From NCBI GenBank assembly GCA_947384775.1, contig CANDIF010000001.1:1-64000 (forward strand): a DNA stretch of 64,000 nucleotides, read 5' to 3'. The notes beneath the pieces were generated by a model. The model made no database searches and was not told the origin of the DNA. It worked only from the letters and a program-made list of their open reading frames with translations. Made by a program: the position numbers and the translations under genes. How positions within the stretch are numbered: the stretch's first letter is position 1; each line of letters begins with the position of its first letter. Below, piece after piece: positions 13,372-64,000 of this stretch. The stretch comes from an uncultured Clostridium sp. (GTDB lineage Bacteria; Bacillota; Clostridia; TANB77; CAG-508).

Positions 13372-13884
13372 ATGCTATTTAGAAGAGCAACAGAAAGCGA
13401 CTTTGCGGAATATGTTCGTCTTTATAATGACCCTGAAGCAGAAACCATATATCGGAAAAAAGAAGACGAAGAAATAAATCCGCAAAAACAGCAGGAAGCC
13501 TTGAAATACTTTGGACTTGATGACCCAAACAGCGATTTCGTAAAGCAATTAGAGAAAGAAAATCGGAGAACTTTTCCAAAATTCCTTAAAGACATTACAA
13601 ACTCTTCTCACAGAATAATCATAATTCAAAATTCGTACAGAGTAGTTGGATTTATTGAATTATTCATGATTAAGAGATTTTGTTGGAAAATTGCTTTTCT
13701 ATGCATTGAGCAGAGATATCAAACCCTTGAAGTCATTAATCATTTGATGCAGTACCTTAGAAAAGAAGAAAATATGCATCAGCTTGATGTATGTACTTAC
13801 AATGGAGACTTTGATGATATGCTTAAAGCTGCGGGGTTTATCAGCGATGGTTTTTCATTCCTGCACAAGACATTAGACGGCTAG
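13372..13884 (+). CDS. GC-rich cassette 1: GNAT-like acetyltransferase
   Basis: The 170-residue product starts LFRRATESDFAEYVRLYNDPEA, as GNAT proteins do, and ends with the KAAGFISDGFSFLHK strand pair. The acetyl-CoA loop is not obvious, so activity is uncertain. Codon use (CAG, CTT, GCG, CGG) is unlike the neighbours. It carries two in-frame CGG codons, at 13453 and 13564, that must be read as Arg to keep the frame open, unlike the AT-rich genes. It is monocistronic with its own terminator, so it is probably acquired. Confidence 0.6.
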   Translation: MLFRRATESDFAEYVRLYNDPEAETIYRKKEDEEINPQKQQEALKYFGLDDPNSDFVKQLEKENRRTFPKFLKDITNSSHRIIIIQNSYRVVGFIELFMIKRFCWKIAFLCIEQRYQTLEVINHLMQYLRKEENMHQLDVCTYNGDFDDMLKAAGFISDGFSFLHKTLDG

Positions 13885-22788: not shown

Positions 22789-23703
22789 ATGGCGCAGCAG
22801 CAACAACCAAAGCAGAAGTCCATTTCCTTTGAGGCTCCGCTGTACAGACAACCGTCTGATCACCTGCGGAATTTCATGGAAAAACTTATGCGCAAACCTG
22901 CACCCTGCCATGCAATATGGCGTGAAGATCAAAAGCTGACATTTTATGTGTCCAAGTCGGAAAAAGCTACGGTTGCTCCGTTCTTCAGGAAAACTGAAAA
23001 ACCGAAAAACGTGGTAAATAAGATGAAAGCTTTTGCTTCAAAGTTCAATGTTACGAATATTGCAGTCGTAAAAGACGAAGCAGATATGTACTTTGAACTT
23101 CTTAGCCCTGCGGATCTGGCTGAAAAAGACGAAAAAATGGATCCTAGCTATGGCGATGGCGTGCTATATGTTATGCGCGTGAGGGTTACTTGCAAAAGTA
23201 ATGAAGCAACGAGAGTTCTGCTCAAGTTCTATGGAACTCTGGATATGAGTATCGAACCGTTACACTTCAATCTTCAATTGCAAGATTGGCCTTCAAGGGA
23301 CTTATCGGAATTCGCAAAGCAGATGAACCAAGCTAACTACCCGTGCTATGCAGTGGCACATGGACATGAGAAATTATTAATTACTGCTAAAAATTTGTCC
23401 GAAAACCAAATCATTATACCCAGCAATGTGAAAAAAGAGGACGAGAAAACGATTGCTAAAAGTCTTTCTATCTTTGCTTCAAAGCTGAATGCAACATCAA
23501 CATTCATTGATAAGAAGCAGGTATCTATCAGAATCGACTTTTTGCATGTCCACGAATTCAAAGCGAAGTATGGCGAAACGGCGTGTAACCAATGTGACGA
23601 AAACACTGTATGTGTTATGCAGGTAAACGTTACCTGCACCGAAGCGGAAGCCAGGAATGTTTTGGGCGACTTCTTCAAAATGCTTGACAAATATGGCAAT
23701 TAA
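22789..23703 (+). CDS. GC-rich cassette 2: tandem-duplicated protein of unknown function
   Basis: The 304-residue product is two related halves: about residues 22-148 and 166-300. Each runs from a helix through PCHAIW/PCYAVA, a helix with KAFASKFNVT / LSIFASKLNAT, a strand pair, then VLYVMRVRVTC / TVCVMQVNVTC and a final helix. No catalytic motif is seen and no family recognised. Codon use is far richer in G+C than the flanks. One in-frame CGG at 22867 must be read as Arg. It has its own promoter and terminator. Confidence 0.6.
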   Translation: MAQQQQPKQKSISFEAPLYRQPSDHLRNFMEKLMRKPAPCHAIWREDQKLTFYVSKSEKATVAPFFRKTEKPKNVVNKMKAFASKFNVTNIAVVKDEADMYFELLSPADLAEKDEKMDPSYGDGVLYVMRVRVTCKSNEATRVLLKFYGTLDMSIEPLHFNLQLQDWPSRDLSEFAKQMNQANYPCYAVAHGHEKLLITAKNLSENQIIIPSNVKKEDEKTIAKSLSIFASKLNATSTFIDKKQVSIRIDFLHVHEFKAKYGETACNQCDENTVCVMQVNVTCTEAEARNVLGDFFKMLDKYGN

Positions 23704-26091: not shown

Positions 26092-26493
26092 ATGGAAAAA
26101 ATGCTAAACGCATTTGCCCAATGTCTTCTCATCCAGTATCCTACAGAGGATGGGAAAAAGGCTAAAGAGGCAAGTGAGGAGCAGAAGGATGCTTTCAAGG
26201 AAGCAATTCGAGAGCATCTGGCTTCCGCCAGTAGAGTTCGAGATCCTGGCTATGTTGTGACCTACGATTACCGACAAGGGAAAATCCGTGGCGGAAAGCG
26301 ACTTGCAGATGAGGTTACAAGTCCGAATAGAAACTTGGGGAGTGTCCTTGAAAAACTCCCTGAACTTCCAGAAGGCGAAACTTACATCTTCCCGACTCCT
26401 ATGTTTATTTCTTTTAGGATTAGGGAACGTGCATACAAAGAGCCTTTCGAGGTCATCAGTTTCTGCCAGTGGATTAACAGCAATCTGCAATAA
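26092..26493 (+). CDS. GC-rich cassette 3: hypothetical protein
   Basis: The 133-residue soluble protein has a helical N-terminal half rich in Glu, Lys and Ala, then a basic segment (YDYRQGKIRGGKRLADE) and a C-terminal part with ETYIFPTPMFISFRIRER. No family recognised. G+C-rich codons contrast sharply with the neighbours. Unlike the other cassettes it contains no CGG codon; its arginines use CGT, CGA, AGA, AGG and similar. It is monocistronic with its own 3' hairpin. Confidence 0.55.
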   Translation: MEKMLNAFAQCLLIQYPTEDGKKAKEASEEQKDAFKEAIREHLASASRVRDPGYVVTYDYRQGKIRGGKRLADEVTSPNRNLGSVLEKLPELPEGETYIFPTPMFISFRIRERAYKEPFEVISFCQWINSNLQ

Positions 26494-37974: not shown

Positions 37975-38382
37975 ATGAGACTTTGGACAATGGTTCTAAA
38001 GAAAAATGAACCAGCAGATTTTACATTTGTAGAGCGAACTAAACCAAAAAATTCCTGGTTTTATAATATCGCTATCGACACAACTAAGAACCGAATTCCA
38101 GCTACTTCACCAAGTGTTCGGCCTATCATAGATGCTGCTATAGAATTATGTGATGAGTTAGACCTTTTTCCAGAAAAGGCACCAGACTGTTGCATAGAGG
38201 AAAGCATAATGATACGGAGAGGATACGAAACACTGGTGTGTATAGCACGGGCCGAAGCGTTCGAAGTGATGGTTGAAAACGGTGTTAAAAAAATCAGAAC
38301 AAACAGGTATTTCTTTTCAGAAGAAGAAGTAAAAGCAATTTTAAAATTTATAGATGTAGTAATTAACCATGGGTGGTTTTAA
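37975..38382 (+). CDS. GC-rich cassette 4: hypothetical protein
   Basis: The 135-residue soluble protein (RLWTMVLKKNEPADFTFVERT ... KFIDVVINHGWF) matches no family I know. It has three in-frame CGG codons, at 38119, 38215 and 38248, that must be Arg for the frame to stay open. The middle one is followed by A, exactly the CGGA context that marks shifts in host genes. Codon use is unlike the neighbours. It has its own promoter, leader hairpin and terminator. Confidence 0.55.
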   Translation: MRLWTMVLKKNEPADFTFVERTKPKNSWFYNIAIDTTKNRIPATSPSVRPIIDAAIELCDELDLFPEKAPDCCIEESIMIRRGYETLVCIARAEAFEVMVENGVKKIRTNRYFFSEEEVKAILKFIDVVINHGWF

Positions 38383-57064: not shown

Positions 57065-57131
57065 TTATACAGTCGATAGTAATATCGTCTATATCCAGAT
57101 GCTTAGAAGACAGCAAGGAGGTAATAGCAGC

Positions 57132-57833
57132 ATGATTTATACCCAGCAAACATGGTCTAAACTTGCATTACAGGAGAAATTTCCTGTGGTGAGAGCAAGT
57201 GCGCTTTTACTGAAGGACTCCTTCATGCAGTTTGAGCCGAACACGGAGAACCAGTATCTCCTCAAGGAGAGCCTGGCACACCAGCTTGAAAGAGGGGTAC
57301 AGGATTTCAGACGGCCCGCGATTGATCCTTCGCTTGATGCGGATGGAAATATCATCTATATGGCTGGAATGGAGCCTGCACTGGGGATTCTCCCTGAACA
57401 GCTGGAGCAAAAAGCAAAAGCCTTTATGCCAAAATTAAACAGCCGGATCGGAAACGACTCAGAATATGATCTTTTCCTCGGAACTCTGATCAAATATCTG
57501 GTTGTGGAGAGAAATCATCCTATAAAAATGGCATGGGCAGAGGTCTGCTTCAGCAGTGAACTTCTTGCAAACACGGCAAATTCTCAGATTCCCTACAGCA
57601 ACGGGATGGAACCTACAGGAAACCGGGCAGAAGGTGTGTGGGCAGACCTGGGCAATGTTCAGAAAATCGTTTTGGACGATAGAACTGCTCAGTTCTTGTG
57701 CAGAGGTTGTATGTACACAGCCAGGAGCCCGTACTACAGTTTGGCAAGCAAAAGCATGCCGATTCCGAAGCTTGACATTACTGTAGAGGAGCTGCTTAAA
57801 AAGGCGACTCCTTGGATTGTTATGGAGGTGTAA
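57132..57833 (+). CDS. GC-rich cassette 5: hypothetical protein
   Basis: The 233-residue soluble protein (MIYTQQTWSKLALQEKFPVV ... LKKATPWIVMEV) has no recognised domain. It has the most G+C-rich codon use of the window and three in-frame CGG codons (57312, 57444, 57624) that must be Arg to keep it open. The start at 57132 follows GGAGG; an upstream in-frame ATG at 57099 precedes it. Own promoter, leader hairpin and 3' hairpin, typical of the six cassettes. Confidence 0.55.
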   Translation: MIYTQQTWSKLALQEKFPVVRASALLLKDSFMQFEPNTENQYLLKESLAHQLERGVQDFRRPAIDPSLDADGNIIYMAGMEPALGILPEQLEQKAKAFMPKLNSRIGNDSEYDLFLGTLIKYLVVERNHPIKMAWAEVCFSSELLANTANSQIPYSNGMEPTGNRAEGVWADLGNVQKIVLDDRTAQFLCRGCMYTARSPYYSLASKSMPIPKLDITVEELLKKATPWIVMEV

Positions 57834-60780: not shown

Positions 60781-60859
60781 GAGAAGTCTTTGCAAAATTG
60801 GACAAAACAATTAAAATATGTTATAGTATTTTTCAGTGTGTTACAAGGAGGCATACACA

Positions 60860-62075
60860 ATGGACAAGATAGAAAAAGCTAAAAAAATACTAGAAGAGCA
60901 ACATCAAATGCATATAGAAGTAAAAAATGAAGAAATAGCCGAACAAATATTAAATATAGATTTTGAACAACTTAAAAATTTATACAATACAGTTGATGAA
61001 GAAATAATATATGAAGATATAAAACCTGTAAAGGCAATAAATCCAGATAAAATGCCAGAGGAAAGAATTAAAGAATATATAAATATAGGAGAGCAAAAAG
61101 TAAAAGAGAAAAAATTCGCAGTAGCAATAATGGCTGGTGGGCAAGGCTCTAGACTTCGGACATTATGGACCAAAAGGAACATTTAAAGTAAAAATTAATA
61201 ACGAAGAAAAATATTTATTCCAAATAATAATGGAAAAAATGATAAAAGCAAAAGAAAAATATGGAGTTGAAATACCATGCTATATAATGACTAGTCCAGA
61301 AAATAATAGCGAAACAGTTCATTTTTTAGAAGATATGAATTATTTTGGGTATTCTAAAAAATGTGTTAAATGTTTTATACAAGAAGAAATGCCATTATTA
61401 GATGAAAACGGGAAACTAATAATAGGAGAAGATGGAAAAATTAAATTAGCATCAGAAGGAAATGGTGGAATCTTTTATTCAATGAGAAAGAAAAGAATTC
61501 TTGACGAAATGAAAGAAAAAAACATTGAATGGGTTTTTATAGGTGCAGTAGATAATTTATTAGTAAAATATGTAGATACATTACTATTGGGATTAGCAAT
61601 TGAACAAAAAACAAATATTGCAACAAGAACAGTAATTAAAGCAAATCCACATGAAAAAGTTGGAGTTATATGTAAACAAAAAAATAGGATAAAAGTTGTT
61701 GAATATACAGAAATTTCTGAAGAAATGCTAAAAGCTGTTGATGAGAATGGAGAAATGCTTTTTGGAGAATCACATATTATGTGTAATTTATTTAATATAA
61801 AAGCTATTGAAATAGCTAGCACAAATAAACTAAAATACCACGTGGCACATAAAAAGATAAATTATATAGAAAATGATACACTAGTAGTACCAAAAAAAGA
61901 AAATTGTTATAAATTTGAGAAATTTATATTCGATAGCTTTGGATTATTTGACAATATAACAATTTTAAGAGGGAAAAGAGAAGAAGATTTTGCTCCAATC
62001 AAGAATGCAGATGGACCAGATAGCCCAGAAACTGCAGTAAAATTATATGAGGAATATATTTCAAAACAAGTATAA
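60860..62075 (+). CDS. UDP-N-acetylglucosamine/UDP-sugar pyrophosphorylase, joined by +1 shift at CGG 61157
   Basis: The enzyme starts at the ATG behind AAGGAGG. The frame breaks inside the nucleotide-binding loop MAGGQGSRL, CGG, where the family has Gly. Skipping the C gives GHYGPKGTFKV and the rest (CYIMTSPENNSETV, GNGGIFYSM, GAVDNLLVKYVD), total 404 residues, the usual size for the UDPGP/UAP family. It makes UDP-GlcNAc or a related UDP-sugar from UTP and sugar-1-phosphate. Unshifted translation ends nine codons on. Confidence 0.92.
61157..61160 (+). other. +1 frameshift site: CTT CGG A
   Basis: In-frame CGG at codon 100 in the catalytic loop GGQGSRLG of the pyrophosphorylase. Confidence 0.92.
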
Positions 62076-62114: not shown

Positions 62115-62978
62115 ATGTTATATGAAAAAAGTAAAATAGTCAATAGAATAAAAAATATATCTTTAATTTTGTTTAAAATTGTGTTTGGAACAATGCTTAT
62201 GGCAATTGGAATAGATTTATTTTTAGTACCTAGTAAATTATCAACTGGAGGATTCTCTGGAATAGGAACAGTTTTATATTATTTATGGAATATACCTGTA
62301 GGAACAACTACAATAATTTTAAACATTCCGCTTTTTATACTTGCATTTTTGAAACTAGGAAAAAAGTTTACAATTAAAACAATAATAGGAACTGCTTCAT
62401 TATCATATTTTTTAAATGTATTTGAAAAAATAACACCACTTACAACTGATAAAGTTTTAGCTTTTATTTATGGTTCAATAGCAGTTGGAATAGGGACAGC
62501 AATTGTATTAAAAGCTAAAGGTTCTACTGGTGGCTCTGATTTACTTGCAAGTATTATAAGAGCATATAATAAAAAAATTAAAACAGGAACACTCATAATT
62601 GCATTAGACACAATAATTGTTGGAGTAAATGTTCTATTCTTTCGAGAAATTGAGATTGCTTTATACTCAGCTTTGGCAATATATATTATGGGAAAGATAT
62701 TAGATATATTTTTTGAAGGTATAGATTTTGCAAAAATGATATTAATAATATCTCCAAAAGGAGAAGTAATATCAGAAAAGATAAGCAAAGAATTAGCAAG
62801 AGGTACAACAAAGATAAAGGGAATTGGAATGTATAAAAAAGAAAGTAGAAAAATTTTACTTTGTGTAGTATCCAGAAATGAAGTGAGACATGTAATGGGA
62901 ATAATAGAAGAAACAGATAAAACTGCCTTTACAATAATAACAAACGCAAGAGAGGTTTATGGAAAAGGATTTAAATAG
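62115..62978 (+). CDS. YitT-family membrane protein
   Basis: The 287-residue protein has five to six helices (AIGIDLFLVPSKLSTGGFSGIGTVLYY, GSTGGSDLLASIIRAYNKK) and a C-terminal DUF2179 domain (GTTKIKGIGMYKKESRKILLCVVSRNEV). The family has no settled function. Its ribosome binding site is part of the preceding terminator stem, which should limit translation from read-through transcripts. Confidence 0.85.
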   Translation: MLYEKSKIVNRIKNISLILFKIVFGTMLMAIGIDLFLVPSKLSTGGFSGIGTVLYYLWNIPVGTTTIILNIPLFILAFLKLGKKFTIKTIIGTASLSYFLNVFEKITPLTTDKVLAFIYGSIAVGIGTAIVLKAKGSTGGSDLLASIIRAYNKKIKTGTLIIALDTIIVGVNVLFFREIEIALYSALAIYIMGKILDIFFEGIDFAKMILIISPKGEVISEKISKELARGTTKIKGIGMYKKESRKILLCVVSRNEVRHVMGIIEETDKTAFTIITNAREVYGKGFK

Positions 62979-62994
62979 ATGTTTTATAAATATA

Positions 62995-63027
62995 GGGCAG
63001 CTGAAGAGATGAACTCTTCAGCTGCCC
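62995..63027 (-). terminator. 3' hairpin of GC-rich cassette 6
   Basis: GGGCAGCTGAAGAG pairs with CTCTTCAGCTGCCC around a five-base loop, downstream of the double-Hfq gene on the minus strand. Confidence 0.72.
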
Positions 63028-63092: not shown

Positions 63093-63680
63093 TTAGTACT
63101 TCATATAGATGGTCGAAAGAGCATTTTTGTAGATAACGTTGGGAGAATCACCCTTGTATCGTATAAAAACGATTACATTTTCGTCATGTGCCAAAATGAT
63201 GCCGTGCTCTTGGTATCCGCCGATAGTGACAAGGGTCACACGTGAATGAGAATTGATGAATTTTGAAAGCCAATGCTCCTCTATATTCTCATTAATAATG
63301 CTGGGGGAATATGAATCAGGGAGAATGGCTTCAAAGTCAAAATTCTCATTTTCTACTGCTGCCGGACGAGTCTTGGCACATTTCTCAATCGTAGAGAGCG
63401 CCTGTTTGTACATTATGCAAATACCGTCATGAGGATCATGGACAAGGACAAGCACTTTGGGGTCGTGGGCACGAATTTTCCCTTTTTCCTGGAATCCATT
63501 GGAAGTGAAAATTTTCACCAAAGATTGACTTTGGATATAGCTGTCAATCATGGAGATTTCATACCGATGGGGATTCGGAGCGGGGAAGGATTGTGCAACA
63601 GGCTGGGCTTCAGGCAGAGCTCTTTCTTGGAAAGCAGGGTTGCCTTTAGACCTGCGCTTGAGTCTTTGCATCTTGTTCAT
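63093..63680 (-). CDS. GC-rich cassette 6: tandem double Hfq/LSm protein
   Basis: The 195-residue protein has a basic N-terminus (1-40), then two Hfq-like domains. The first, about 44-99, has IDSYIQSQSLVKIFTSNGFQ and the Sm2 motif YKQALSTI. The second, about 130-193, has EEHWLSKFINSHSRVTLVTI, GGYQEHG and IYKNALSTI. Normal Hfq reads NGFQLKG and YKHAISTI and is a hexamer of single domains, so two fused copies might form a trimer of dimers. One in-frame CGG at 63566-63564 must be Arg. GGAGAC precedes the start. Confidence 0.75.
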   Translation of the reverse strand: MNKMQRLKRRSKGNPAFQERALPEAQPVAQSFPAPNPHRYEISMIDSYIQSQSLVKIFTSNGFQEKGKIRAHDPKVLVLVHDPHDGICIMYKQALSTIEKCAKTRPAAVENENFDFEAILPDSYSPSIINENIEEHWLSKFINSHSRVTLVTIGGYQEHGIILAHDENVIVFIRYKGDSPNVIYKNALSTIYMKY

Positions 63681-63733
63681 CTCTCTGGTCTCCTTTTATA
63701 AAAAGTGTTAGAGCAAAGCTGCTCTACACTTTA

Positions 63734-63763
63734 ATTATACCATTTTTAGGAATTTTATGTCAA
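63734..63763 (-). promoter_or_regulatory. Promoter of cassette 6
   Basis: On the minus strand TTGACA (63763-63758) and TATAAT (63739-63734) are 18 bases apart. A leader hairpin AGTGTAGAGCA-gctt-TGCTCTAACACT follows. Confidence 0.78.
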
Positions 63764-63951: not shown

Positions 63952-64000
63952 ATGGCAGTAGTTGCAATGAAACAATTACTTGAAGCAGGTGTACATTTCG
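63952..64000 (+). CDS. rpsB: 30S ribosomal protein S2, N-terminus only
   Basis: MAVVAMKQLLEAGVHF at the window edge is the start of S2, behind AAGGAGG. The rest lies outside the window. Confidence 0.9.
   Translation, partial: MAVVAMKQLLEAGVHF

Follow-up and report, generated by a model that had tools for sequence, protein, structure and literature searches.

Tandem Hfq proteins, in which a single chain carries two Hfq domains, have been noted in Zymomonas mobilis (ZMO0347) and in six other species of the Sphingomonadales, and whether three such chains form a ring was raised as a question for the Zymomonas protein in 2010 (PMC2877685). The sphingomonad proteins are described by a dedicated model (NF010691/PRK14091; cut-off 270 bits) that a Sphingomonas parapaucimobilis example of 200 amino acids, encoded on an 880-kb plasmid (L091:681-1283), exceeds with 287 bits. 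Both halves are close to canonical Hfq, both keep the YKHA motif and the gene adjoins hflX. In canonical Hfq, the proximal uridine site is formed by Gln8, an aromatic residue at position 42, Lys56/57 and His57/58, and Gram-positive Hfq has a distal aromatic residue at position 30 (PMC10628458). The Firmicutes proteins of known structure (Staphylococcus aureus, 1kq1; Bacillus subtilis, 3hsb) carry one domain in each chain, and their proximal uridine site is intact.

The window (the whole 64,000-nucleotide stretch of uncultured Clostridium sp. DNA that was analysed) encodes a protein that, like the sphingomonad tandem, has two Hfq/Sm domains in one chain and, like Firmicutes Hfq, has the Sm fold, the Sm2 lysine and the distal aromatic residue. 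Unlike the sphingomonad proteins, however, it scores 35.4 bits on NF010691, far below the cut-off, its halves have diverged from canonical Hfq and its gene does not lie beside hflX. The tandem architecture as such is not new; what appears to set the gut Clostridia protein apart, judging from its sequence, is its separate descent and its diverged sites.

The first-pass annotation of this DNA had proposed that a 195-residue chain contains two Hfq/LSm domains, in departure from the usual form of one domain per chain, and this has held up. The open reading frame, which begins with ATG and has an AGGAGA sequence close by, is real and contains all four of the motifs quoted (SNGFQEKGKI, IGGYQEHGII, YKQALSTI and YKNALSTI). 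The Pfam Hfq model PF17209 (curated cut-off 27 bits) matches two stretches of the whole protein (56.4 bits, E 2e-15) and recognises each half above cut-off when searched in isolation (Table 1); homologues and predicted fold agree. Scores on the Hfq equivalog model TIGR02383 are 49.2 bits for the window protein and 58.6 and 52.8 bits for its two orthologues, all below the cut-off of 61.7 bits. A search of the window's own 1.49-Mb assembly, rated 93% complete, gave no other convincing Hfq match.

Table 1 Features of the tandem Hfq locus (positions in the window; G000 is the window genome, G116 and G061 are the genomes with orthologues)
Feature	Position	Strand	Evidence
YitT-like membrane protein gene (name presumed), convergent, conserved neighbour	62115..62978	+	Synteny in G116 and G061
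Intrinsic terminator, 14-pair stem	62995..63027	-	Nearly identical between G000 and G116
Tandem Hfq gene, 195 aa	63093..63680	-	ORF; Pfam Hfq in both halves; orthologues in two species
C-terminal Hfq/Sm domain, residues 131-193	63102..63290	-	Pfam 29.7 bits alone; helix + five strands, pLDDT mostly >90; VIA-align to Hfq chains over 131-195
Linker, residues 101-130	63291..63380	-	pLDDT about 50-58; shorter in G061
N-terminal Hfq/Sm domain, residues 37-100	63381..63572	-	Pfam 30.2 bits alone; helix + five strands, pLDDT mostly >90; VIA-align to Hfq chains over 35-103
N-terminal tail, residues 1-36, basic first 12 residues	63573..63680	-	pLDDT 54-74; G061 orthologue without tail
Ribosome-binding site AGGAGA	63689..63694	-	AAAAGGAGA invariant in three species
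5' leader hairpin AGAGCA-GCTT-TGCTCT	63709..63726	-	Fold z -2.9; weak in G061 (z -0.9)
Sigma-70-type promoter-like site, TTGACA-18-TATAAT, 12/12	63734..63763	-	TTGACA and TATAAT invariant in three species
rpsB start, divergent conserved neighbour, runs past window end	63952..64000	+	Synteny

Orthologues were found in two of the seven other genomes of the genus, one of 194 amino acids (G116; 59% identical over the full alignment) and one of 153 amino acids (G061; 51% identical), and both retain the two Hfq domains. The basic tail that had been reported ahead of the domains is present in the window protein, with six lysine or arginine residues among its first 12, but is not a constant feature, being absent from the shorter orthologue. 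No match was obtained in the remaining five genomes (G035, G082, G100, G130 and G142); the region upstream of rpsB differs in G035, G082 and G100, and the G130 contig stops too early for that region to be judged. Searches of public genome, viral, phage and plasmid collections returned the same two orthologues, in assemblies named 'uncultured Clostridium sp.' and 'uncultured Clostridia bacterium', and nothing further, with no relative at all in the viral, phage and plasmid sets; the relatives are all metagenome-assembled genomes. The order is otherwise mostly without Hfq: 22 of its 385 genomes have Hfq matches and three have the tandem form. At the level of the class, none of 291 genomes exceeds the NF010691 cut-off, and a search of the phylum with a tandem profile recovered the window genome alone among 398 sampled. 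PHROGs yielded nothing beyond a weak match (best E 0.008) to families of unknown function. A role in a defence system was considered and dropped, PADLOC having returned no match for the tandem protein.

Comparison of the orthologues yields a dN of about 0.34 against a saturated dS of more than 3, so that dN is around a tenth of dS; NG86 values of dS above 1 are unreliable and dS is used here solely to call the silent sites saturated. The difference indicates that the tandem gene is neither a chance nor a decaying open reading frame, and the substitution rates fit purifying selection on the protein.

How the two domains came to be joined was addressed with a tree of individual domains. The three N-terminal halves cluster together (97/97), as do the three C-terminal halves (90/87), and the two groups are sisters (94/91), with single Hfq-like proteins of genus g25 as their neighbours. 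The simplest history would be that an Hfq-like domain was duplicated once within the gene, in an ancestor of the three species. When the Sphingomonas tandem and the E. coli and S. aureus Hfq proteins were added, the Sphingomonas halves grouped with E. coli Hfq (99/97) whilst the Clostridia halves stayed with the g25 proteins (97/96). Common descent of the two tandem forms is thus not what the tree returns, suggesting that the Clostridia protein arose independently; the sequences are about 60 residues long with long branches, making this moderate evidence. The g25 proteins (L017 and L018, from the same family) resemble the tandem gene in being encoded by GC-rich genes amid AT-rich DNA but have one domain and occupy other loci.

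An AlphaFold2 model built from 17 sequences (pLDDT 81, pTM 0.69) shows an N-terminal helix and five strands, the Sm fold, in both halves, and Foldseek and VIA-align agree with this assignment. The top-ranking Foldseek matches are Hfq without exception, ruling out the different fold that was named at the outset as the outcome that would overturn the domain assignment. How the domains pack against each other rests on thin data, since a model from three sequences only was poor (pLDDT 38) and the single-domain Hfq rows of the larger alignment fell almost wholly on the N-terminal half. In VIA-align, the top row is 2x4j (ORF137 of Pyrobaculum spherical virus, PSV), with 109 of 109 residues aligned over residues 44-195 of the model (Z 12.0, rmsd 2.3 Å), followed by Hfq chains that match one half or the other (Z about 8). 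Going by the model, a single chain with a similar arrangement of both domains has therefore already been solved, although ORF137 is an archaeal virus protein with 10% identity and such a resemblance is evidence of neither common ancestry nor function. A ring of three tandem chains is plausible: three chains would close a pseudo-hexamer in which N- and C-terminal halves alternate. The first-pass annotation had pictured a ring with alternating RNA-binding faces, which does not fit as worded; both halves keep the Sm2 lysine and differ at the uridine site, so that non-equivalent sites alternating round one ring would be a better description.

To examine those sites, the proximal residues and the distal aromatic position, as defined in PMC10628458, were mapped onto each half using alignments to S. 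aureus and Thermotoga maritima Hfq together with the domain alignment. Of the proximal uridine site, the lysine alone is retained in every half (K92 and K185 in the window protein). Gln8 is glutamate in both halves (E41 and E134) and is replaced in all three species, and the stacking aromatic residue at position 42 has given way to lysine or arginine in the N-terminal halves (K75) and to asparagine or threonine in the C-terminal halves (N168). His58 is lost from all C-terminal halves (N186; threonine or asparagine in the orthologues). The earlier statement that the RNA-binding histidine has become glutamine or asparagine is accurate for the window protein, where the N-terminal residue is Q93, but both orthologues keep histidine in their N-terminal halves. 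Single Hfq-like proteins of the same family also vary at or lose this histidine, so its loss is not exclusive to the tandem; the proximal site looks to be eroding across the family, and not because two domains share a chain.

The distal face presents a different picture. The aromatic residue at position 30 is retained in every half (F63, tryptophan or tyrosine in the N-terminal halves, Y156 in the C-terminal), as is the YK.A[IL]ST core. Position 28, which we take to be among the other distal contacts, is asparagine in the N-terminal halves and glycine or lysine in the C-terminal halves, a change that may make distal binding partial. From these residues we infer a weak affinity of the pore for uridine, with purines more likely to be bound at the distal face. 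With its proximal site degraded, the protein would regulate genes post-transcriptionally by binding mRNA, the distal face probably engaging purine-rich segments, and would not serve as an annealer that binds sRNA 3' uridines. On balance we lean towards this reading, namely that the tandem Hfq derives from one duplication and forms a three-chain pseudo-hexamer that takes up purine-rich RNA on its distal face and is not a classical sRNA annealer. Its significance would lie in tandem Hfq having arisen independently in a distant phylum, with sites already diverged; this offers a natural test of which ring sites every subunit must have, something that is difficult to ask of a homohexamer.

Could the protein instead be a canonical Hfq, whose three-chain ring binds sRNA 3' U-tails at the proximal pore and anneals them to mRNAs, as expected of the Zymomonas tandem? 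The Sm2 lysine in both halves and the N-terminal histidine in two of the three species speak for this, as do the intact YKHA motifs of the sphingomonad tandem and the stress phenotype of the Zymomonas hfq mutant (PMC2877685). However, none of the three proteins retains Gln8 or the stacking aromatic in either half, the histidine is missing from every C-terminal half and neither half has an arginine patch such as RRER, and we judge this reading unlikely. We are equally doubtful that the Sm ring has been kept whilst RNA binding was lost or became secondary, leaving a ring that binds DNA, or one that regulates another protein or serves as its scaffold. Rapid protein divergence (43-59% identity among the species, compared with 92-97% for rpsB) and the eroded RNA contacts of the C-terminal half would suit such a role, but the core motif and distal aromatic persist in every half and dN is far below dS.

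A third possibility concerns the gene rather than the protein. The tandem gene had been described as lying in a foreign-looking cassette, and in base composition it does stand out: its GC content is 0.43 and its GC3 0.46, against a window GC of 0.277 and a typical GC3 of 0.15. It is, however, the sole gene of its transcription unit, and its position, between the YitT-like gene and rpsB-tsf-typA, is syntenic in all three species; a foreign cassette, in so far as location is meant, is ruled out by this synteny and by the orthologous flanks. The leader hairpin is also shared with G116, where a C-G pair has become T-A through changes on both sides, preserving the pair. Of the traits of a phage moron, the gene displays a promoter-like site and terminator of its own (both consensus matches) and a deviant composition, but its flanks place it outside any prophage. 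A moron-like origin as cargo from a mobile pool, with a GC-rich self-contained unit acquired horizontally and serving a function linked to phages or plasmids, would accord with these traits and with further single GC-rich orphan genes on the contig; we regard it as quite improbable given the shared locus, the promoter conserved in three species and terminator in two, the lack of relatives in the phage, plasmid and viral collections and the saturated synonymous sites, which mean that its GC content is not that of a fading import. Rarity of Hfq in the order might also recall a lineage discarding Hfq and a functionless relict left to drift, but an open frame, promoter and core motifs retained in three species and a dN about a tenth of dS make this very improbable indeed.

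The high GC content is itself of long standing. Orthologue values are 0.43 (G116) and 0.42 (G061), yet four-fold sites in the tandem gene are 21-28% identical between species compared with 48-100% in the neighbouring genes; these sites have turned over, and the composition has thus outlived full replacement of the silent sites. The single-domain Hfq-like genes that were checked (g25, g29 and kin) have GC contents of 0.37-0.51 in flanks of 0.24-0.33, whereas a canonical Hfq gene of family f2 has a composition like that of its host. GC-rich single-domain genes in AT-rich surroundings occur at L011, L015-L021, L024 and L048-L053, several of them lacking the Sm2 histidine. Some such genes outpace their neighbours (33-52% identity against 77-90%), although the L017/L019 pair does not. 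The pattern across this family is a separate puzzle worthy of study.

Beyond Hfq, scattered single genes of high GC content (0.35-0.47 in a contig of 28% GC) lie in the window at 22789-23703, 26092-26493, 37975-38382, 57099-57833 and 13372-13884 and elsewhere on the same contig (G000:C1) at 77952-78431, 136452-136952, 147483-147914 and 221816-222949. Most are without a recognisable family, and several come with a promoter-like site and GC-rich terminator of their own; terminator-like hairpins follow six of 11 GC-rich genes compared with 11% of 215 other genes. A more speculative and rather unlikely reading would combine these strands: an alternating two-subunit Hfq ring in a mostly Hfq-less lineage, holding mRNA on one face without a working pocket for sRNA 3' ends and encoded by one of a scattered set of self-contained genes that some active process keeps GC-rich within AT-rich genomes.

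Pfam scans of two of the GC-rich genes (22789 and 57099) gave no significant match. The orphan at 57099-57833 (244 amino acids) has a syntenic orthologue in G116 (L013:14329-15033; 79% identical) but is without a match in the six remaining genomes of the genus. With a dS of 0.61 between G000 and G116, its silent change is not strongly faster, indicating that not every gene of the GC-rich class is accelerated. The 304-residue protein encoded at 22789-23703 looks by eye as if it consisted of one domain present twice in succession, the copies having diverged; its family matches are weak only (Cas6-like, E 0.003; phage late-transcription coactivator, E 0.06). Elsewhere in the window, a gene that we take to encode a UTP--sugar uridylyltransferase-like protein is split between two frames (60836-61186 and 61137-62075), similarly so in G116, whilst G061 has one open reading frame of 405 residues; the split reflects either a frameshift or a sequence error.
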